From: Actinomycetota bacterium
GTDB lineage: Bacteria; Actinomycetota; Acidimicrobiia; IMCC26256; VFJJ01
NCBI GenBank assembly: GCA_009886115.1
Contig: VFJJ01000017.1
Coordinates: 1 to 64,000, forward strand
DNA: 64,000 nt
Direction of reading: 5' to 3'
The notes below the pieces were generated by a model, which did no database searches, was not told the DNA's origin, and saw nothing but the letters and a program-made list of their open reading frames with translations. Each line of letters opens with the position of its first letter. Position 1 is the first letter of the stretch. Below, one piece after another: positions 136-29,500 of this stretch. A program made the translations under genes and the position numbers.

Positions 136-1239
136 TCAGGGTGCCTGGGCCGGACGGTTCAGGCCGTAATAGGCGGCGGCGTTGGCGCCGAGCAACCGCT
201 CCTTGGTCGCGTCGTCGAGATCGGTTCGAGCCCGCACGACCTTGGTGCACTCGGGGAACAAGCTGTCGGAGTGCGGGTAGTCGGACGCGAACAGCAGAGC
301 GCCACTCCCGAGGACCTGGATCGCTCCCGGCAGCATGGCCTCCTGCGGCTCGGCCGACACGAAGCAGCGTCCGGTGGTGAAGAACTCGATCGGGTCGCGC
401 AGCAACAGCGGCATCTCGGCGCCCCGCCGTTCCCAGTGCTCGTGCAGGCGCTCGACCCAGTACGGCGCCCACCCGCATCCCGCCTCGAGGAAGGCGACGC
501 GCACCCCCGGAAACCGGTCGAGGACCCCGCCGCAGATGATCGAGCCCATGGCCAGCATCTGCTCGAAGGGATGGCCGACCGCGTGCACCATGAAATGCGT
601 GTCGAAGCGCTCGGTGCCCGCGGCCTGGAGATGAGAGCCGTTGCCCCAGTGCACGGCGATGGGCACGTCGAGCGCCTGAGCCTCGGCCCACAACGGATCG
701 AATGCCGGGTCGTCGAGGTTGCGCCCGTTGACGTTCGGTGGGACCGTGCCGCCCAGCAGGCCCAGCTCGTTGACGCTCCGCCGAAGCTCGTCGACCGCAG
801 CCGACACGTCTCCCAGAGGCAGCGCCGCCATGGCTCGCAGGCGGGTCGGGGCGCCAGAGCAGAACGACGCGTAGTAGTCGTTGCACGCCCGAGCGAGCGC
901 GGTCGCGAATCCCGTGTCACGCACCGAGGTGACCGCGAGCCCGAGGCTGCCGTAGATCACCTGCACATCGAACCCCTCGAGATCGAGATCTGCGAGACGG
1001 GCCAGGGGGTCGGAGGCTCCGGGTCGGCTCCCGCCGAGCTTCACGCCCTCGACGCCCTTCGAGTGCGCCTGACGCAACCGCGTGTCGGGGTACAGCTGGC
1101 CCTCCATCATGATCCGGCTGAGCCCGAGCGTGTCCTTGACCAGGATGGGTCGCCGCGACCGGTACGTCGGGTCCATGAGATCGGCGATGGCATCGAGTGG
1201 CTCGTTGACATGGCCGTCTGCATCGATCACCAGGCTCAT
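136..1239 (-). CDS. Amidohydrolase-2 family metal-dependent hydrolase/decarboxylase
   Basis: Encodes a 367-residue cytosolic TIM-barrel protein of the amidohydrolase-related family (ACMSD / gamma-resorcylate decarboxylase type). The N-terminal metal motif is D-x-D-x-H-x-x-E (residues about 5-13, DADGHVNEP). An inner barrel His lies in VHWG near residue 196, and a C-terminal metal Asp lies in SDYPHSD near residue 320. I chose the ATG at 1239 because a G-rich Shine-Dalgarno run sits directly upstream and the family motif begins right after it; the longer reading frame upstream overlaps the SDR gene. The gene is divergent from the SDR/ThDP operon, with an AGTATACT site between them. The reaction is hydrolysis or non-oxidative decarboxylation of an unknown carboxylate. 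The family is clear, the substrate is not. Confidence 0.85.
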   Translation of the reverse strand: MSLVIDADGHVNEPLDAIADLMDPTYRSRRPILVKDTLGLSRIMMEGQLYPDTRLRQAHSKGVEGVKLGGSRPGASDPLARLADLDLEGFDVQVIYGSLGLAVTSVRDTGFATALARACNDYYASFCSGAPTRLRAMAALPLGDVSAAVDELRRSVNELGLLGGTVPPNVNGRNLDDPAFDPLWAEAQALDVPIAVHWGNGSHLQAAGTERFDTHFMVHAVGHPFEQMLAMGSIICGGVLDRFPGVRVAFLEAGCGWAPYWVERLHEHWERRGAEMPLLLRDPIEFFTTGRCFVSAEPQEAMLPGAIQVLGSGALLFASDYPHSDSLFPECTKVVRARTDLDDATKERLLGANAAAYYGLNRPAQAP

Positions 1240-1336
1240 CGTCCCCCCAGTGCTGCGCTGTCGTTCTTCATGAGTTCGTGGAGCCGCCGGCCGGCCGCCG
1301 CCGGTCGAGTCCGGCCGCTCGCCTTCGGACGAAATG

Positions 1337-1344
1337 AGTATACT
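1337..1344. promoter_or_regulatory. AGTATACT site in divergent promoter region
   Basis: Perfect 8-bp palindrome AGTATACT in an AT-rich island between the divergent amidohydrolase (start 1239) and SDR (start 1402) genes. TATACT reads as a -10 element on either strand. It is one of six intergenic AGTATNCT sites in the first 27 kb, so it may be a shared promoter core, an operator overlapping the -10, or both. Confidence 0.6.
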
Positions 1345-1401
1345 GAGTCTTTCTCGATGCTGCCCTGGCGCTGTGACGCCACGGAGCCGGAGCGAGGGGG
1401 A

Positions 1402-2157
1402 GTGGTGGACTTCGACGGTCGCGTTGTCATCGTCACGGGAGCGGCTCGAGGGCTGGGTCGGGAGTACGCATCGTTCTTCGCTACCGAGGGAGCGAGCGTC
1501 GTGGTCGCCGACATCGCGGCCGACGCCGCCACGGCGACCGCGGCCGACATCGCGCTGACCACCAAGGGGCGCTTGATCGCGGTGGGCGTCGATGTCGCCG
1601 ACCCGACGAGCACCGTGGCGTTGGCCGAACGCACCGTCGCCGAGCTCGGCCGCGTCGACGTGCTCGTCAACAACGCGGGCATCTGGGGTGATCTCGAACG
1701 CATGTCGCTCATCGACACGCCTGACGCCTACTGGGACACCGTGATGGGCGTCAACGTCAAGGGCGCGCTGCTGTGCACCCAGGCGGTTGCGCCCACGATG
1801 CGGCGACAGCGTTCGGGTCGGATCATCAACATCTCGTCGATGGGCGCCTACATGCCCAGTGGCGTGTACGGGGTGAGCAAGCTCGCGCTGAACCAGCTCA
1901 CCTATGCCCTGGCGTCGGAGCTCGGCCCCGACGGGATCACGGTGAACGCCGTGGCTCCGGGCGCGATCGACAACGAGGCCACGCAACGTCAGGTCCCGCC
2001 GGCGGGCATGGAGAAGATGATCGCGGGCACGTTCATGAAGCGCGCCGGCACAGCGAGCGACGTCTTTGGGATGATCCGGTATCTCGCCAGCGATGCCGCC
2101 GCTTGGGTGACCGGTCAGACGTTCCTGGTGAACGGCGGCTTCAACACGCGGCTGTGA
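1402..2157 (+). CDS. Short-chain dehydrogenase/reductase (SDR)
   Basis: Encodes a 251-residue NAD(P)-dependent oxidoreductase of the classical SDR family. Seen in the sequence: the Rossmann motif T-G-x-x-x-G-x-G (VTGAARGLG, about residues 10-18), the NNAG motif, catalytic Ser in NISS, and Y-x-x-x-K in YGVSK. The C-terminal VTGQTFLVNGGF is typical of the family. Start is uncertain: tandem GTG codons at 1402 and 1405 follow the SD-like run GAGGGGG, while an in-frame ATG at 1357 would add 15 residues that lack family similarity. The ThDP enzyme gene follows after 20 bases, so the two probably form an operon. Likely oxidises an alcohol or reduces a ketone made or used by the ThDP enzyme; this pairing is inference. 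Confidence 0.9.
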   Translation: MVDFDGRVVIVTGAARGLGREYASFFATEGASVVVADIAADAATATAADIALTTKGRLIAVGVDVADPTSTVALAERTVAELGRVDVLVNNAGIWGDLERMSLIDTPDAYWDTVMGVNVKGALLCTQAVAPTMRRQRSGRIINISSMGAYMPSGVYGVSKLALNQLTYALASELGPDGITVNAVAPGAIDNEATQRQVPPAGMEKMIAGTFMKRAGTASDVFGMIRYLASDAAAWVTGQTFLVNGGFNTRL

Positions 2158-9866: not shown

Positions 9867-10802
9867 ATGACCGACGAGGGAATCATCGACACGCACGTCC
9901 ACTTCTGGGACCACGCCGTCGAAGGCCTCGAGTGGGCCTGGCTCAAGCCTGGCTTCACGTTCCGGCGCTGGGAGGCGTCGGCGGACATCGACGCCACCCG
10001 GTTCTCGGTTTCGGAGCTCGACCAGGAATCGGCTGGAAGCGGCATCGTGGCCATCGTCCACGGGCACTGCGCCGACCCGATCGACGATCCGGCGACCGAG
10101 ACCGCATGGCTGGAGTCGCTGGCCGAGCGCCACGGCACTCCCGAGGCGATCGTCGGTCGGTGTGCGCTCGCCGATCCCGGCGCCGTCGGCCTCCTGCACC
10201 GTCACGCGTCGTACTCCCGGTTCCGGGGCGTGCGCGATCACGGAGCGATGGGCCACCTCGACCGCGACGAGATCGCGGCGGCCATGGATGCCATCGCCGA
10301 GATGGCGTCGTCGGTCGAGGTCCGCCGCGACCATCGCGAACTCGCCGTGCTCGACGACATCGCGGCGCGCTGGCCGACCGTCACCGTGGCCCTCACCCAC
10401 GCCTGCCTCCCCCTCGAACGCACGAGCGCACAACGAGCCGAGTGGTCCGAGGCGATGCGCGGCCTCGGCGAGCGTCCGAACATCGTGTGCAAGATCTCGG
10501 CCGTCGCCGGGGCGTCCGATCCCGACTGGACGATCGAAAGCATCCGGCCCTGGATCCTGGGCTGTGTCGAGGCCTTCGGGCCCGACCGGTGCATGCTCGG
10601 CTCGAACTGGCCGGTCGACCGACAGTTTTCCACCTACCCCCGGCTCATCGACGCGTACCGACACGTGCTCGCCGAGCTCGACCCCGTCGAACGAGCTGCC
10701 GTCATGAGCGGCACCGCGAGACGGGTCTATCGGATCACGCCGCGCGCGACAGCTCCTGACGACGTTGCTCACTCGGGCCCGAGTGCCGAGGAGCGGGAAT
10801 GA
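9867..10802 (+). CDS. COG3618-type amidohydrolase
   Basis: Encodes a 311-residue TIM-barrel metal hydrolase of the amidohydrolase-2 family, COG3618 branch (lactonase-like). The N-terminal motif is DTHVHFWDH (residues 8-16), and the C-terminal segment FGPDRCMLGSNWPVDR near residue 240 is typical. It is a paralogue of the protein at 25487-26377, which has the same D-x-H-V-H-F-W-D-H start and FGPDR..L..NWP.D end. AAGGAGA precedes the ATG at good distance. Its last codons overlap the ATG of the beta-propeller gene (ATGA), so translation is coupled. Hydrolysis of a lactone, ester or amide is likely, but not proven. Confidence 0.85.
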   Translation: MTDEGIIDTHVHFWDHAVEGLEWAWLKPGFTFRRWEASADIDATRFSVSELDQESAGSGIVAIVHGHCADPIDDPATETAWLESLAERHGTPEAIVGRCALADPGAVGLLHRHASYSRFRGVRDHGAMGHLDRDEIAAAMDAIAEMASSVEVRRDHRELAVLDDIAARWPTVTVALTHACLPLERTSAQRAEWSEAMRGLGERPNIVCKISAVAGASDPDWTIESIRPWILGCVEAFGPDRCMLGSNWPVDRQFSTYPRLIDAYRHVLAELDPVERAAVMSGTARRVYRITPRATAPDDVAHSGPSAEERE

Positions 10803-12667
10803 TCGAGACCCCGGTGACCGACGAGTCCGGCCGCAGCCCCGAGGGCCGATCGGGCGCCGGGGGCCCGCCCCGGTTCTTCGCGCTGTTCGAGTCGACGACC
10901 GGTTCGCTGTTCGCCGGTACCTGTGGCAACGGGATCTCGAGGTCGAACGATGGAGGCGGTACCTGGGAACCCATGCGGATCGGCATCGAGGCAGGCGGCG
11001 GGACCGTCAACGCCTTCGCCGCCGCTTCAGCCGCCGCCGCCGCTTCAGCCGCTTCAGCCGACGGTTCGCTGCTCGCAGCGGCCGGGTCCGCCGGAGCGCT
11101 GCGATCGCACGACGACGGTGCGACGTGGGAGGAGCTCGGTCCCGATGATGCGGTCGTGTACGCGATCTGTTCTCGCGGTGACCGACTCGTTGCTGGTGTC
11201 GATGACGGGCTCCGCGTCCGTTCGGGCGACGGTGTCTGGTCGAGGCCCGCCGATGGCCCCGAGTGCGCGGTGTATCGCTTGGTGGCGATGGGTGACGGCC
11301 GGGTCATCGCCGCGACCGACAGCGCTGGCATCTGGATGATCAACGATCGGGACCACTGCACGCCCTTGGGGATGAGCGCCTGGCCGATCTACGCCTTGGC
11401 CGATCTCGGCGGTGGCGTCGTGCTCGCCGGGACGCGTGGCGGGGGCGTGCTGCGGACGGTTGACGGGGGACGGTCGTGGTTGCCGAGCAACGACGAGCTA
11501 CCCGACCTCGTCGTGCACGTGCTGGTCGATGCCGGCGACGGTGTCGTGCTGGCGGGCACCGGACGCGGTGTGGCCCGGTCGGTCGATGGCGGGTCTCGAT
11601 GGACGCCGCTCGGCACCGGCCTGGTCGACCACCGCATCTTCTCGCTCGTGATCGCCCGTGACGGCGCGGTGTTCGCCGGGAGCTACGACGGGGTGTGGTC
11701 GTGGCGAGCGCCCGACTCCGCCTGGGTCGGCGTCGACACCGGCTTGGGAGTCGGGGAGACCTTCGCCGTCGGCATGGCCGGTAGCGGCGACGTGCTCGCG
11801 GGCTCGCAGGGCGAGATCTACCGGTCGTCCGACCGGGGAGCGACGTGGAAGCGCTCGAGCGGCATGATCGACGCGGGCAACGCCTACGGGTTCTGCGTGA
11901 CGGATTCGGGCGATGTCCTGGTCGGCACCGACGATGGGGTCCGGCGCCTGTCGCGCCGTGCCGGGCGCTGGGTGCACGACGGCCTGGCGGGCATGCGGGT
12001 GTACCGGTTGCTCGAGGCCCGGCCCGACCTGATGCTCGCGGGAACGCTCGGCCATGGCGTGCAGCGCCGGGAGCCGCACGGCGGCTGGCAGCCCGCCAAC
12101 GTCGGCCTCGGGCATCCCATGGTGTTCGACGTGATGCGCGCTGGCCAGTCGGGAGATCTCTTCGCGGGATCGGGCGACCTGGCCAACGGAGCCAAGACCG
12201 GGGGGATCTTCCGGTCGAGCGACGAGGGATGCTCGTGGGAACCGATGGACGTCGAGCCCATCACCGTCTACAGGATCGTCGAGGCCTCCGACGGCGTCAT
12301 GGTGGCGGGCGCCCAGCGCTCGTGCATCTTGCGTTCCTGGGATCACGGTGCCACCTGGCAGGCCTCCCGGCCCCGCGGCTGCCAAGACTCGAAGCTCTAC
12401 TGCCTCTTCGTCGACGGGTCCGACCTGCTCTACCTCGGATCAGGCGCTCGGCTGCTGTGCAGTGACGATCGCGGAGACAGCTGGCACGTGATCGGAGCCG
12501 GGCTCGACGGGGTGACCGTCTACGGAATGGCGGTGCACCCGAGTGGCGTGCTGCTTGGCGCCACGAGCTCAGGGGTCTACCGAAGCGAAGATCGCGGCCA
12601 TACCTGGCAGGCATCGCCGTGGCCTCGGCGTGACGGCGGAGCCACGACTGCGCTGACGGGCGTCTGA
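10799..12667 (+). CDS. Asp-box (BNR) beta-propeller protein
   Basis: Encodes a 622-residue protein made almost wholly of sialidase-type BNR/Asp-box blades. At least nine boxes of the form S-x-D-x-G-x-T-W can be read, for example SNDGGGTWEP, SHDDGATWEE, SSDRGATWKR, SSDEGCSWEP, SWDHGATWQA and SEDRGHTWQA, with degenerate blades between. This fits one large or two smaller propellers. There is no signal peptide or membrane helix, so the product should be cytosolic, unusual for BNR proteins. An Ala/Ser-rich insert (nucleotides about 11018-11059) comes from a short DNA repeat. Translationally coupled to the amidohydrolase at 9867 (ATGA overlap). Function unknown; a scaffold, lyase or glycoside-active role cannot be separated. 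Confidence 0.8.
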   Translation: MIETPVTDESGRSPEGRSGAGGPPRFFALFESTTGSLFAGTCGNGISRSNDGGGTWEPMRIGIEAGGGTVNAFAAASAAAAASAASADGSLLAAAGSAGALRSHDDGATWEELGPDDAVVYAICSRGDRLVAGVDDGLRVRSGDGVWSRPADGPECAVYRLVAMGDGRVIAATDSAGIWMINDRDHCTPLGMSAWPIYALADLGGGVVLAGTRGGGVLRTVDGGRSWLPSNDELPDLVVHVLVDAGDGVVLAGTGRGVARSVDGGSRWTPLGTGLVDHRIFSLVIARDGAVFAGSYDGVWSWRAPDSAWVGVDTGLGVGETFAVGMAGSGDVLAGSQGEIYRSSDRGATWKRSSGMIDAGNAYGFCVTDSGDVLVGTDDGVRRLSRRAGRWVHDGLAGMRVYRLLEARPDLMLAGTLGHGVQRREPHGGWQPANVGLGHPMVFDVMRAGQSGDLFAGSGDLANGAKTGGIFRSSDEGCSWEPMDVEPITVYRIVEASDGVMVAGAQRSCILRSWDHGATWQASRPRGCQDSKLYCLFVDGSDLLYLGSGARLLCSDDRGDSWHVIGAGLDGVTVYGMAVHPSGVLLGATSSGVYRSEDRGHTWQASPWPRRDGGATTALTGV

Positions 12668-25486: not shown

Positions 25487-26377
25487 ATGGGATCATCGTC
25501 GGCCACCGAACGGCTCGAGTTCGTCGACTGTCACGTCCATTTCTGGGACCACTCGCGGGCCGGCCTGCGTTGGCCCTACCTCGAGCCGGGCTTCGACCAT
25601 CCCCGCCTCAAGGAGATGCATCGCCTCGACGCGCCGCGCTTCAGCGTGCCCGAGCTGATCGCCCAAGCGGGTCACGAGGTGTACCTGCGCAAGCTCGTCC
25701 ACGTGCAGTCGGCCACCGAGGAGGCTCCCGGCCTGGAATCGGCCTGGATCGAGTCGGTTGCCGACACCTACGGGACGCCCCATGCCATCGTGGCCCGGGC
25801 GTCGCTCGTGGCGCCCGACCTGGCGACGGTGCTCGAGGCGAACCTCCGCCATCGGCGAGTGCGAGGCGTGCGGGACATGGGTTCACCGGCGACCATCCGG
25901 ACCGAAGCCTTCGCCAGAGGTTTCGAGCGGGTTGCCGATGCCGGCCTGAGCGTCGAGGTCCTGGTGCCGTATCCGCTGTTCGATCGGGTCGCCGAGCTGG
26001 CCGCCCTCCGGCCCGACGCGATCGTGATCCTCGGACATGCCGGTCTGCCCGAGCATCGCGACGCCACCTACCACGCGGCGTGGTCGGAGGCCTTGGCTGT
26101 GTTCGGCGATCGACCGAACGTGGTGTGCAAGATCTCAGCGCTGGCGAGCGGTGCCGACCCGAGCTGGACGGCCGGGTCGATCCGACGCTGGGTCGAGCGC
26201 TGCATCGAGGTGTTCGGTCCCGACCGGGCGATGCTGGCGACGAACTGGCCGATCGACCTCATGTACGGGACCTATCCCCGCCTCGTCTCGGCCTATCGCG
26301 ACATCACCGGCGCGCTCCCCCAGCCCTCGCGTACGGCGCTGTTCGGTGCGACTGCCGAGCGCGTGTATCGCATCTGA
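25487..26377 (+). CDS. COG3618-type amidohydrolase
   Basis: Encodes a 296-residue TIM-barrel metal hydrolase, paralogous to the protein at 9867-10802. The N-terminal motif is FVDCHVHFWDH (residues 12-22), the inner segment ILGHAGLPEHRD holds a barrel His, and the end is FGPDRAMLATNWPIDLMYGTYPRL. AGGAG precedes the ATG. It is the fourth gene of the operon starting at 22308, 25 bases after the GntR gene, so its product probably acts in the same pathway as the P450. A lactonase or ester/amide hydrolase role fits the family. The presence of two such paralogues in separate operons of one putative regulon suggests two related hydrolytic steps. Confidence 0.85.
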   Translation: MGSSSATERLEFVDCHVHFWDHSRAGLRWPYLEPGFDHPRLKEMHRLDAPRFSVPELIAQAGHEVYLRKLVHVQSATEEAPGLESAWIESVADTYGTPHAIVARASLVAPDLATVLEANLRHRRVRGVRDMGSPATIRTEAFARGFERVADAGLSVEVLVPYPLFDRVAELAALRPDAIVILGHAGLPEHRDATYHAAWSEALAVFGDRPNVVCKISALASGADPSWTAGSIRRWVERCIEVFGPDRAMLATNWPIDLMYGTYPRLVSAYRDITGALPQPSRTALFGATAERVYRI

Positions 26378-26452: not shown

Positions 26453-27607
26453 GTGGCGCATGAGCGGTCGACGGGAACGGTTCTGGTTGTTGGCGACGCC
26501 TCCCGCGGAAGCTCGACCGATCGGATCGCGGCTCGCCTGGCTGCCGCTTCGGGCGGGTGCCGATGGGTGGAGGCGACGGCTGAGCAAGCTACGACGGCCT
26601 TGCGCCGACTGGTTCCCGACAGCGCCCGGGTTCCCGGGGTCGCGGTCGTGGGGATCGGCGCGGCCGGGGTCGCCGCGCTCGATGCCGCAGCGACGGTCGG
26701 GCGAATCGCGGGACTGGCGCTCATCGGTGTGCCGCTCGACGCCGACCGGGTTGCCATCGTGTCGGAGTGGCCCGAGGTCGCGGTGCTCGGTGTCGCAGAT
26801 CCCGACGACCGTCCGGGGCTTGCTGGGGCGGTTGACGCCTACCTCGCGTCGCAGCATGCGGCATCCGATCTGTTCGTCGGACGGGTCGACGACGAGTCGG
26901 TGACCGCCACTGCGACCTGGCTGGAAGCGCGCCTCGGATCGATTCCGGAGGTCGAGGAGGTGGTCGTCAGCAGCTCCGACGGCTGGGAGATCCACGGCAC
27001 CCGGTGGCTCCCCGCATCGGCGCGGCCGGTGCCCGGCGTCGTGCTTCTCCATACCGGCCGCAGTGACCGCACGGCGTTCGCCCGGTTGGAGCGACTGCTC
27101 GTCGACGCCGGGATGGCCGTCCTCAACATCGACTGGCGCGGCCGCGGATCGAGCACCAACCTCGGCTCGTACAGCGCGCTCCCGGTCGAGGTCCGAGACG
27201 TGGCCTGGCGCGACGCCGCCGCGGCGCTCGACCATCTCGCAGCTCATCCCCGGGTCGACCCGGAGCGCCTCGCCACGCTCGGCTCGGTGCACGGAGCCGA
27301 GCACGCGGTGCGAGCGGCGCACCGCGATCTGCGAGTGAAGGCGATCGTGATCCTGACCGGCTACCGCCCCGCCGAGGCCGAGGAAGCTCCCCACCTCACC
27401 AGTGGCGTCGTCGATGTGCTGTACGTCACCAGCGAGGGCCATGCGATCACCACCGCGGCGATGCGCTCGCTCTACGACGCCTCGCCCGGACGACGCACCC
27501 AGTTCGTCATCTATCCCGGTGCGCCCATCGGTTACCAGCTCTTCGAGCTCGATCCCACCCTCGAGCCGCGGATCGTCTCGTGGCTGGGGGAGGTCCTCGC
27601 TCGATGA
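26453..27607 (+). CDS. Degenerate alpha/beta-hydrolase, one and a half domains
   Basis: Encodes 384 residues. Residues about 165-384 form a complete alpha/beta-hydrolase-like domain (VVSSSDGWEIHG start, NIDWRGRGSS oxyanion-side loop), but the nucleophile elbow reads GSVHG where G-x-S-x-G is expected, so the catalytic Ser is replaced by Val. Residues about 20-150 resemble only the second half of such a domain: VAVVGIGAAGVAALDAA and DPDDRPGLAGAVDAYL align with the matching segments of the next gene product. The GTG start is probably leaderless. Stop overlaps the next start (ATGA). It likely arose by tandem duplication with loss of one half. Perhaps a binding or scaffold protein rather than an esterase. 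Confidence 0.72.
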   Translation: MAHERSTGTVLVVGDASRGSSTDRIAARLAAASGGCRWVEATAEQATTALRRLVPDSARVPGVAVVGIGAAGVAALDAAATVGRIAGLALIGVPLDADRVAIVSEWPEVAVLGVADPDDRPGLAGAVDAYLASQHAASDLFVGRVDDESVTATATWLEARLGSIPEVEEVVVSSSDGWEIHGTRWLPASARPVPGVVLLHTGRSDRTAFARLERLLVDAGMAVLNIDWRGRGSSTNLGSYSALPVEVRDVAWRDAAAALDHLAAHPRVDPERLATLGSVHGAEHAVRAAHRDLRVKAIVILTGYRPAEAEEAPHLTSGVVDVLYVTSEGHAITTAAMRSLYDASPGRRTQFVIYPGAPIGYQLFELDPTLEPRIVSWLGEVLAR

Positions 27608-28326
27608 CCGGCACAGAACGAGAGGTCCGCTTCCCAGCTGCCGATGGCTGGGAGCTCGGCGGCATCCTGACCGTGCCCCGCGACGACGGTCACCACCGGG
27701 GCCTCCCGCCGGGAGCGGTGTTGGTGCCCGCCTCACGACACGAGCGCGACGCTTGGGGCTCGACATCGGCTGCGCTCGCTGAAGCCGGTGTCGGGTCGCT
27801 CCGCATCGATATCCGGGGCCGGGGCACGAGCCGAGGCGCGCTCGACCATGGTGCCATGGGGCCGCTCGCCCGACGGAAGGTCGCGCTCGATGTCGCGGCC
27901 GCCGTGTCATTCCTGGCCGACCTCGAGGCCATCGACGGCACGCGTCTCGCCGTCGTCGGTGAGCAGGACACCGCGGTGGCTGCAGCCGACGCCGCAGTGC
28001 GCGACTCCCGGGTCGTCGCCCTGGCGCTGCTGTCGGCCCGCAATACGAGCGGTCACCCGTGGCCGCATGCCGGCGCCAACCGTGCTGTGCTGAGCCTGGT
28101 GTCGACCGAAGACCGTGAAGGTCTCCGGGCCACGGTCGACGCCTACCTGAGCGGGGCGCCCGGCAGCCGCATCGAGGTCTTCCGAGGACTCGGTATCGGG
28201 ATCACGATGGCATCTGTGCGCCAGTTCGAGCATCCCGACGCCGAGGCCATCGAAGTCCTGATCGGCCGTTGGGTCGCTGATCGATTGCGCCAGCCTGGGG
28301 CCACACCGCCCCCGCCCGACCATTGA
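27604..28326 (+). CDS. Alpha/beta-hydrolase-like protein without nucleophile Ser
   Basis: Encodes 240 residues of the alpha/beta-hydrolase fold, paralogous to the preceding gene product: PAADGWELGG matches SSSDGWEIHG, and RIDIRGRGTS matches NIDWRGRGSS. The nucleophile elbow reads VVGEQDTAV, so the Ser position of G-x-S-x-G is Gln. The late acid/His region is also weak: the C-terminal part has only FEHPDAEAIEVLIG. Translation is coupled to the preceding gene by ATGA overlap. An amidohydrolase gene follows after 13 bases. Catalysis of the usual type is unlikely. The two proteins could form a heteromer; that is inference. Confidence 0.75.
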   Translation: MTGTEREVRFPAADGWELGGILTVPRDDGHHRGLPPGAVLVPASRHERDAWGSTSAALAEAGVGSLRIDIRGRGTSRGALDHGAMGPLARRKVALDVAAAVSFLADLEAIDGTRLAVVGEQDTAVAAADAAVRDSRVVALALLSARNTSGHPWPHAGANRAVLSLVSTEDREGLRATVDAYLSGAPGSRIEVFRGLGIGITMASVRQFEHPDAEAIEVLIGRWVADRLRQPGATPPPPDH

Positions 28327-28339
28327 GAGGACGCCGGGA

Positions 28340-29500
28340 ATGCGAGATGGTTTCGAGTTCATCGACACCGACCAGCACGTCGGTCCGAACATGGAGACGC
28401 TGCACACGCACGCCAGCTCCCGTTTGCTGGCGCGTTGGGACGAGCTGGTTCCGTATTTCGTCCCGGTCACCGAGGGCCACCACCTGAGCATCGACCCCAT
28501 CCCCTTCACCCGGAACCTGAACGTGGGCACGACCGGGGCCCAAACGACGGCGCAGGGTGCCGGGGCCGAGATACCGCTGCGTAAAGCGGTCAAGCACAAC
28601 TTCGAGGTGCATCCCGCCCCCGAGGTGAACAACGAGAACTGGGAAGGCCGACTCGCCGACATGGATCGTGAGGGTGTCGACATCGCGCTCATCTTCCCGG
28701 CCACGTTCTCGACGGCCGCAACCGTGCTCGACGTCGAGATGCAGAGCGAGCTGAACGCTGCCTACCACCGATATCTCGTCGGCTACTGCGGGTCGGAACC
28801 CGATCGGCTCAAGGGCGTCGCCCTGGCCAACGCCCGCGACCCCGAGTCGTCGGCTGCTGAGCTGCGCAGCATCGCCGACGAGCCCTGGCTGGCTGCGGTC
28901 GCGGTCATCCTGCCCGAAGGGCTGCCGATCGACGATCCGTCACTCGCCATGATCTTCGACGTCATGAACGACGCCGATCTCCCCCTCGTGCACCATTCGT
29001 TCTTCTACGAGCCTCCGTACTTCCCCGGGTATCGCGACATCTGGGGAAACCTCGCCATTGCCCGGATGGCGGCGCATCCGTGGGGCGCGCAACGCCTTGT
29101 GGCCCACGTGGCCTTGAGCGGCATGTTCGACCGCTACCCGAACCTGCGGATCGGTTTCGCCGAGTGCTCGGGCGGGTGGGTCGGGGGCTGGCTCACCCGG
29201 CTCACGTATCAGGCCGACTACCTCGCGTCGCGGCTCCCCGAGATCAAGCGGACACCCATCGAGTACGCGCAGGACGGGAGGATCTTCTGCGGTATCGAGC
29301 TCGACGAGGGCGCCCAGTCAGCCGTCGGGGTCGCCGCGGTCGTCGGAGACGGCGTGCTCATGTATTCGTCCGACTACCCGCACGGCGGCTGCCGGTTCCC
29401 CCGTTCCACCGACATCGCTCTGGAGTGGCGCGAGACGCTCGGCTCCGACTCGTTCCGCAAGCTCACCAGCACCAACGCTCGCCGCCTGCTGCGCATGTGA
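28340..29500 (+). CDS. Amidohydrolase-2 family protein (HHSFFYEPPYFPGY subgroup)
   Basis: Encodes a 386-residue TIM-barrel metal hydrolase, close paralogue of the protein at 3947-5095. Motifs are IDTDQHVGP (residues 8-16), VHHSFFYEPP near 216, and SSDYPHGGC near 345. Both paralogues share the ILPEGLPIDDPSL-type stretch and the GYRDIWGN-type turn. AGAGGA precedes the ATG. It stands third in a run of five tightly spaced genes (26453-31055) with the two degenerate hydrolases, an ABM-fold protein and a CoA-transferase. The reaction is a metal-dependent hydrolysis or decarboxylation. The presence of two close copies in one window suggests two related substrates or intermediates. Confidence 0.86.
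   Translation: MRDGFEFIDTDQHVGPNMETLHTHASSRLLARWDELVPYFVPVTEGHHLSIDPIPFTRNLNVGTTGAQTTAQGAGAEIPLRKAVKHNFEVHPAPEVNNENWEGRLADMDREGVDIALIFPATFSTAATVLDVEMQSELNAAYHRYLVGYCGSEPDRLKGVALANARDPESSAAELRSIADEPWLAAVAVILPEGLPIDDPSLAMIFDVMNDADLPLVHHSFFYEPPYFPGYRDIWGNLAIARMAAHPWGAQRLVAHVALSGMFDRYPNLRIGFAECSGGWVGGWLTRLTYQADYLASRLPEIKRTPIEYAQDGRIFCGIELDEGAQSAVGVAAVVGDGVLMYSSDYPHGGCRFPRSTDIALEWRETLGSDSFRKLTSTNARRLLRM

Follow-up and report, generated by a model that had tools for sequence, protein, structure and literature searches.

Genes A and B, which overlap in an actinobacterial genome, encode α/β-hydrolase (ABH) type domains without a Ser-acid-His triad, and they group with a family of two-domain Acidobacteriota proteins that occur in fused and split forms. 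The reading preferred here, to which we give about even chances, is that A and B together are the split form of this family and constitute a non-hydrolytic unit, most likely one that binds a small molecule. The window, i.e. the whole 64,000-nucleotide stretch of DNA analysed, belongs to one MAG.

Gene layout and predicted fold

The first-pass annotation of this DNA had described two overlapping genes encoding paralogous hydrolase-like domains, and both points hold. The ATG of B at 27604 sits within the stop codon of A (A 26453-27607, B 27604-28326; overlap ATGA), and the C-terminal domain of A shares 33% identity with B over 197 aa (E 1e-16), with a Smith-Waterman score of 197 that none of 1000 shuffles reached (shuffled mean 38; 0/1000). 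The start of B is taken as this ATG and not as GTG 27580 of the longest ORF, family homology starting downstream of the ATG. The features, with window positions, are as follows.

25487..26377, + strand: Amidohydro_2 gene upstream of A (Pfam E 1.6e-30), its link to A/B presumptive
26453..27607, + strand: gene A (GTG start, TGA stop; 384 aa), predicted to encode a truncated N-type and a complete C-type ABH domain
26453..26941, + strand: N' domain of A (about residues 1-163; β3-β8, N-type), with G69 at the nucleophile position, D119 as the acid and no His
26954..27604, + strand: C-type ABH domain of A, with V279, H330 and I359 at the triad positions (C-type HMM 231 bits)
27287..27289, + strand: codon of V279, nucleophile position of the C-domain of A, in the elbow LGSVHGA
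27527..27529, + strand: codon of I359, catalytic-His position of the C-domain of A (PGAPIGYQLFEL)
27604..28326, + strand: gene B (240 aa, ATG to TGA), predicted to encode one complete N-type ABH domain (N-type HMM 172 bits)
27964..27966, + strand: codon of Q121, nucleophile position of B, in the elbow VGEQDTA
28111..28113, + strand: codon of D170, triad acid position of B, the acid being retained in 20/21 N-type domains
28195..28197, + strand: codon of I198, catalytic-His position of B (RGLGIGITM)
28340..29500, + strand: Amidohydro_2 gene 13 bases past B (Pfam E 6.7e-21), likewise with a presumptive link to A/B

AlphaFold models of A (mean pLDDT 85.0, pTM 0.75) and B (mean pLDDT 91.5, pTM 0.90) each gave more than 1000 Foldseek matches in the PDB at E < 0.001, with ABH esterases and lipases ranking first; on these predicted structures both proteins are members of the ABH fold superfamily. 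The N-terminal region of A had been taken for a half-domain resembling B. Its likeness to B stands (Smith-Waterman 98 with the second part of B, against 45.6 +/- 8.4 for shuffles, 0/1000 as high), the alignment with the C-domain of A itself not being significant, but it is not a half; it is modelled as a six-stranded β3-β8 domain. With strands at residues 9-14, 37-42, 63-68, 85-91, 110-115 and 139-142, it has six of the eight ABH strands and is compact, so that only the β1-β2 hairpin is missing. It scores 33 bits against an N-type HMM versus 11 bits against a C-type HMM, and homologous domains reach 120 bits (L073) and 93 bits (L006/L076) against the former. Judged by these scores it is a reduced N-type domain, and the homologues of A from L006/L076 and L073 have it too.

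Against the curated cut-offs of the Pfam families compared (Hydrolase_4, FrsA-like, DLH and AXE1), full-length A reaches at best 23.6 bits (cut-off 27) and full-length B at most 11.9 bits (cut-off 21), and the best score with the NCBIfam models for UilS lactonase, hydr1_PEP and FrsA is 30.9 bits (cut-off 400). The isolated C-domain of A narrowly passes Pfam DLH (22.3 bits versus 21), which is a match at the level of the fold. With both full-length proteins below every Pfam and NCBIfam cut-off, the tandem triad-less ABH family appears to be uncatalogued, and a literature search on it found nothing.

The lost triad and the former active site

Triad positions were fixed by alignment with single-domain relatives that retain G-A-S-Y-G, an acid after β7 and G-G-H-G. 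None of the three residues is kept in the C-domain of A (V279/H330/I359), B (Q121/D170/I198) retains the acid D170, and the N' domain of A has G69 at the nucleophile position, keeps the acid D119 and lacks the His. Beyond the nucleophile, the acid and His have changed as well in A (H330 and I359), and in B only the His (I198). The first-pass annotation had read the elbows GSVHG (A) and GEQDT (B) as lacking a catalytic Ser, and they indeed sit exactly at the nucleophile turn, aligned with GASYG of the relatives. By alignment, neither A (V/H/I) nor B (Q/D/I) has the triad of an ABH hydrolase of the serine esterase, lipase or DLH type. The accompanying claim that DGWE and RGRG occur in all the domains does not hold for the N' domain of A, which has neither. 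Moreover, D-G and D-x-R-G-x-G-x-S are also found in triad-bearing relatives (D-x-R-[GA]-x-G-x-S in 20/20 single-domain ones), so the two motifs are ordinary ABH features and not diagnostic.

In the wider family, a non-redundant set of 65 domains from tandem or split-pair proteins contains not one complete Ser-acid-His triad (0/65). The loss of individual residues is not uniform, because Ser persists at the nucleophile position in 5 of these domains and His in 11, never as a full set. By contrast, 27 of 30 single-domain relatives have the triad, and in the other three the nucleophile position is occupied by N (twice) or D (once); the 30 are the 33 listed minus L006, L025 and L067, which belong to the tandem family as split-pair or truncated proteins and likewise lack the triad.

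Two sets of substitutions at the nucleophile position are of separate interest. The single-domain proteins of L087, L088 and L089 have Asn or Asp there (AGNCAVN, AADCAVN) with the acid and His kept, and may be intermediates or have changed chemistry. In the C-type domains of L077 9113-10603 (GTDRGA), L078 312-1742 (GLDRGA) and L079 107-1648 (GADRGA) the position is occupied by Asp, as in dehalogenases and epoxide hydrolases, but there is no His.

It is very improbable that A and B are decaying hydrolases, or cryptically active ones with a displaced nucleophile such as S278 in GSVHG or T123 in GEQDTA. A Ser does adjoin the nucleophile position in A, and in the five family domains with Ser it occupies that position. 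However, S278, one residue ahead of the nucleophile position, is not a conserved displaced nucleophile, because the nearest homologues carry I or T in its place (GIIHG, GIVHG, GTVIG, GTVLG), and relatives have S, N or G where B has T123. A search in both proteins for a Ser, Asp or Cys that could serve as a displaced nucleophile found none conserved at the sequence level, and the displaced nucleophile was rejected because the neighbouring Ser/Thr are not conserved; the triad-position His is also missing in both window proteins. With respect to decay, five pairs of orthologous triad-less tandem proteins have dN/dS values of 0.034-0.125, which indicates purifying selection, and pseudogene decay was rejected on these values in relatives (0.03-0.13). 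The two split-pair comparisons were saturated, and selection on the window genes is deduced from the family because they have no close relative. The earlier proposal that the pair is non-hydrolytic thus gains support from the absence of the triad in all 65 family domains together with purifying selection on the relatives.

The former active site has features of its own. In N-type domains the triad Asp is kept in 20/21 and a Met is found in 21/21, where G-x-x-M replaces the His loop, and Glu is common directly ahead of the old nucleophile position; the main C-type subgroup has GG-x-x-G-Y-x-x-[FL] at the former His loop. Because the triad Asp and the invariant Met in the ex-His loop are kept, the N-type pocket region appears to be constrained rather than free. 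Such position-specific conservation would also suit a non-hydrolytic enzyme, in which an ABH pocket, possibly where the N and C domains meet, carries out isomerisation, cyclisation, retro-aldol cleavage or decarboxylation without a triad. This is possible, though we rate it well below even. The location of A and B among enzyme genes and the diverged paralogues in each Acidobacteriota cluster, which look like a set with different substrates, speak for it, but the family nucleophile position takes A, D, E, G, I, Q, R, S, T, V and Y, a width of variation unlike that of a new active site, and the C-type domain in the window retains 0/3 triad residues.

Distribution, origin and genomic neighbourhood

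A scan of the A/B alignment against genome contigs of 84,980 species yielded four loci, all from Acidobacteriota (ACE_ACI1; Ca. Sulfopaludibacter), with 38-54% identity to the C-domain of A. L006 contains a split A/B pair with an Amidohydro_2-like gene upstream and amidohydrolase domains downstream, and L007-L009 encode fused proteins, N-type followed by C-type, of about 475-560 aa, several per cluster. Genome surveys, which were samples (1,717 genome searches altogether), added a further split pair in G419, from the class of ACE_ACI1, and fused forms in G572, G576, G580, G602 and G623, from the class of G396; the split pair is therefore found in two Acidobacteriota genomes besides the window. 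As to whether both genes always occur together, in the loci retrieved the N- and C-types of the tandem clade are only fused or encoded by adjacent split genes, never apart. This constant pairing fits a complex, and by analogy with the fused homologues A and B probably form a physical N-C unit. No other holder of the A/B family was found in the host's own class (395 genomes), order (58) or phylum (296), its own taxonomic family being represented in the search by the host genome alone, and none among the plasmids searched for A and B. A peptide-pattern search of genome contigs gave no close relative of A.

In a 97-sequence tree the N-types form one group and the C-types another, with mirrored subgroups. 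Window A clusters with the A genes of L031/L067 (support 100/95), window B joins the B genes of L006/L067 (support 99/97), and both positions lie inside the C-type and N-type clades, respectively, of the Acidobacteriota tandem family; the exact place of B is less sure because it has a long branch with unusual composition. The host genome is actinobacterial, with seven WhiB genes, and the window G+C of 0.69 is the same as in a second of its contigs, as against 0.52-0.58 for the Acidobacteriota loci. A contig from a contaminating acidobacterium was rejected as improbable, on the window G+C and on the WhiB genes of the genome. The simplest reading is horizontal transfer between Acidobacteriota and the host lineage, which would be old enough for base composition to have adjusted.

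In codon-positional composition, A and B have a lower third-position G+C (0.78-0.83) and a higher first-position G+C (0.77-0.79) than many of the genes around them (about 0.85-0.91 and 0.65-0.73, respectively), which fits either a foreign origin or an Ala/Gly/Asp-rich composition.

The window contains seven Amidohydro_2 genes as well as genes for Amidohydro_3, a luciferase-like monooxygenase, CoA-transferases III, an acyl-CoA dehydrogenase, an enoyl-CoA hydratase, a TPP enzyme and TauD, a content that marks it as a catabolic neighbourhood. The ACE_ACI1 and G419 clusters share with it Amidohydro_2, BNR propeller, HbpS-like, TPP enzyme and luciferase-like monooxygenase genes, and additionally contain GMC oxidoreductases and TAT-exported Gluconate_2-dh3 proteins.

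Other observations concern the same clusters. The Amidohydro_2 protein encoded at 139-1986 (- strand) has 55-59% identity to its ACE_ACI1/G419 counterparts, and is closer to them than A/B are to theirs. A BNR/sortilin-type propeller protein is encoded at 10799-12664, directly downstream of an Amidohydro_2 gene, and in L074 a 30% identical counterpart adjoins an amidohydrolase. The large Acidobacteriota clusters L072-L077 encode several diverged tandem triad-less proteins, GMC oxidoreductases, TAT Gluconate_2-dh3 proteins and TPP enzymes, along with what, named from a reading of sequence, are gamma-glutamyltransferase-like and TenA-like genes. With 91 Amidohydro_2 genes in the host genome, seven of them in the 64-kb window, this family of metal-dependent hydrolases/decarboxylases is extremely expanded.

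Most Acidobacteriota family members start, judged by a simple measure of hydrophobicity, with a hydrophobic segment that resembles a signal peptide. Such a segment is absent from A, B and a few fused members, and the 19 residues that precede the start of A in frame show no signal peptide either. The suggestion in the first-pass annotation that the pair binds a CoA ester finds no support here: a CoA ester is unlikely as the family ligand because most homologues look exported and exported proteins are unlikely to meet CoA, and this ligand was rejected on that basis. In Solibacterales-type genomes the family genes often adjoin genes for OMP_b-brl_4/CarboxypepD_reg outer-membrane proteins. In G572, an OMP_b-brl_4 gene is found no more than about 1 kb away from 3/6 family genes (probability by chance about 0.002), a test on six genes of one genome with a threshold picked post hoc, in which duplication may count twice.

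These neighbours bear on whether the pair is a structural or scaffolding subunit without a pocket function, e.g. a stabiliser of an amidohydrolase or, for the exported relatives, a partner of an outer-membrane β-barrel. We consider this unlikely. The invariable pairing of the domains and the G572 arrangement would suit it, and ABH folds act elsewhere as non-enzymatic interaction modules. All three split pairs (3/3) lie beside amidohydrolase genes, as help for a neighbouring amidohydrolase, suggested earlier, would have it, but that suggestion is weak: Solibacterales-type family loci mostly lack amidohydrolase genes and the adjacency counts for little because the host has so many Amidohydro_2 genes. 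The neighbouring genes moreover vary by subgroup, at least 38 OMP genes are present per Acidobacteriota genome searched, making adjacency cheap there too, and two of the three G572 OMP pairs may be mutual copies.

Proposed role and relation to known ABH proteins

The preferred reading is that an N-type and a C-type domain form one functional unit, of which A plus B would be the split form, and that this unit hydrolyses nothing any longer. Its retained, partly re-evolved pockets would most likely bind a small molecule processed by the surrounding catabolic cluster, and it may present the bound molecule or hand it on. It speaks against this reading that non-hydrolytic catalysis would account for the same conservation, and that A and B have no signal peptide, unlike, apparently, the greater part of the family. 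More doubtful is the idea of a new class, either of two-domain triad-less ABH enzymes or of exported ligand-capture proteins working with outer-membrane β-barrels, in which N- and C-types make a new joint site, for catalysis or for binding, several paralogues have diversified in each cluster and the system was shared once with an actinobacterium.

Triad-less ABH proteins have so far been known mainly as eukaryotic signalling and adhesion proteins, plus a few odd enzymes. Here is a bacterial family in which both paralogous ABH domains are triad-less, kept together, multiplied in catabolic clusters and strongly selected, and it makes testable the long-standing question of what an ABH pocket can do after hydrolysis is gone. 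In practical terms, the automatic labels 'alpha/beta hydrolase' and 'dienelactone hydrolase' are probably functionally wrong for A/B-type genes.

The closest comparison is with the single-domain Acidobacteriota relatives (L048-L068, L087-L105), from the Hydrolase_4/DLH/FrsA-like Pfam neighbourhood, which have the same fold, the DG[W] start, the D-x-R-G-x-G-x-S loop and the β7 acid position, but mostly keep Ser-Asp/Glu-His (27/30) and are not tandem. FrsA-like esterases and 2,6-dihydroxypseudooxynicotine hydrolase (PDB 4i4c, 2jbw), which are fold matches to A, likewise carry an N-terminal segment ahead of the ABH domain; by contrast with the N' domain of A this segment is not known to be an ABH domain, and the nucleophile is present. 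The bottromycin epimerase BotH (PDB 6t6h), which we take to be an atypical ABH enzyme acting without a triad, resembles A/B in that its ABH domain has no functional triad and its gene lies in a metabolic cluster, and a weak profile match to it (E 7e-5) is a point in favour of non-hydrolytic catalysis; it differs in being a single domain with a peptide substrate in a different cluster. In HOD-type cofactor-independent dioxygenases, also of ABH fold, the nucleophile is dispensable but a His-Asp dyad is needed as general base (PMC10548524). A and B, with I359 and I198 at the His position, lack this dyad, and a HOD-type mechanism is unlikely for them because the His is missing, which counts against catalysis of that kind. 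NDRG3 provides a precedent for an ABH protein that has lost its triad and turned non-enzymatic (PMC7022630). In the NDRG family and other non-enzymatic ABH-fold proteins, as in A and B, the triad is replaced by non-reactive residues (PMC7022630); NDRG proteins differ in being eukaryotic signalling proteins with a single, capped domain, and their likeness to A/B is one of fold and triad loss.
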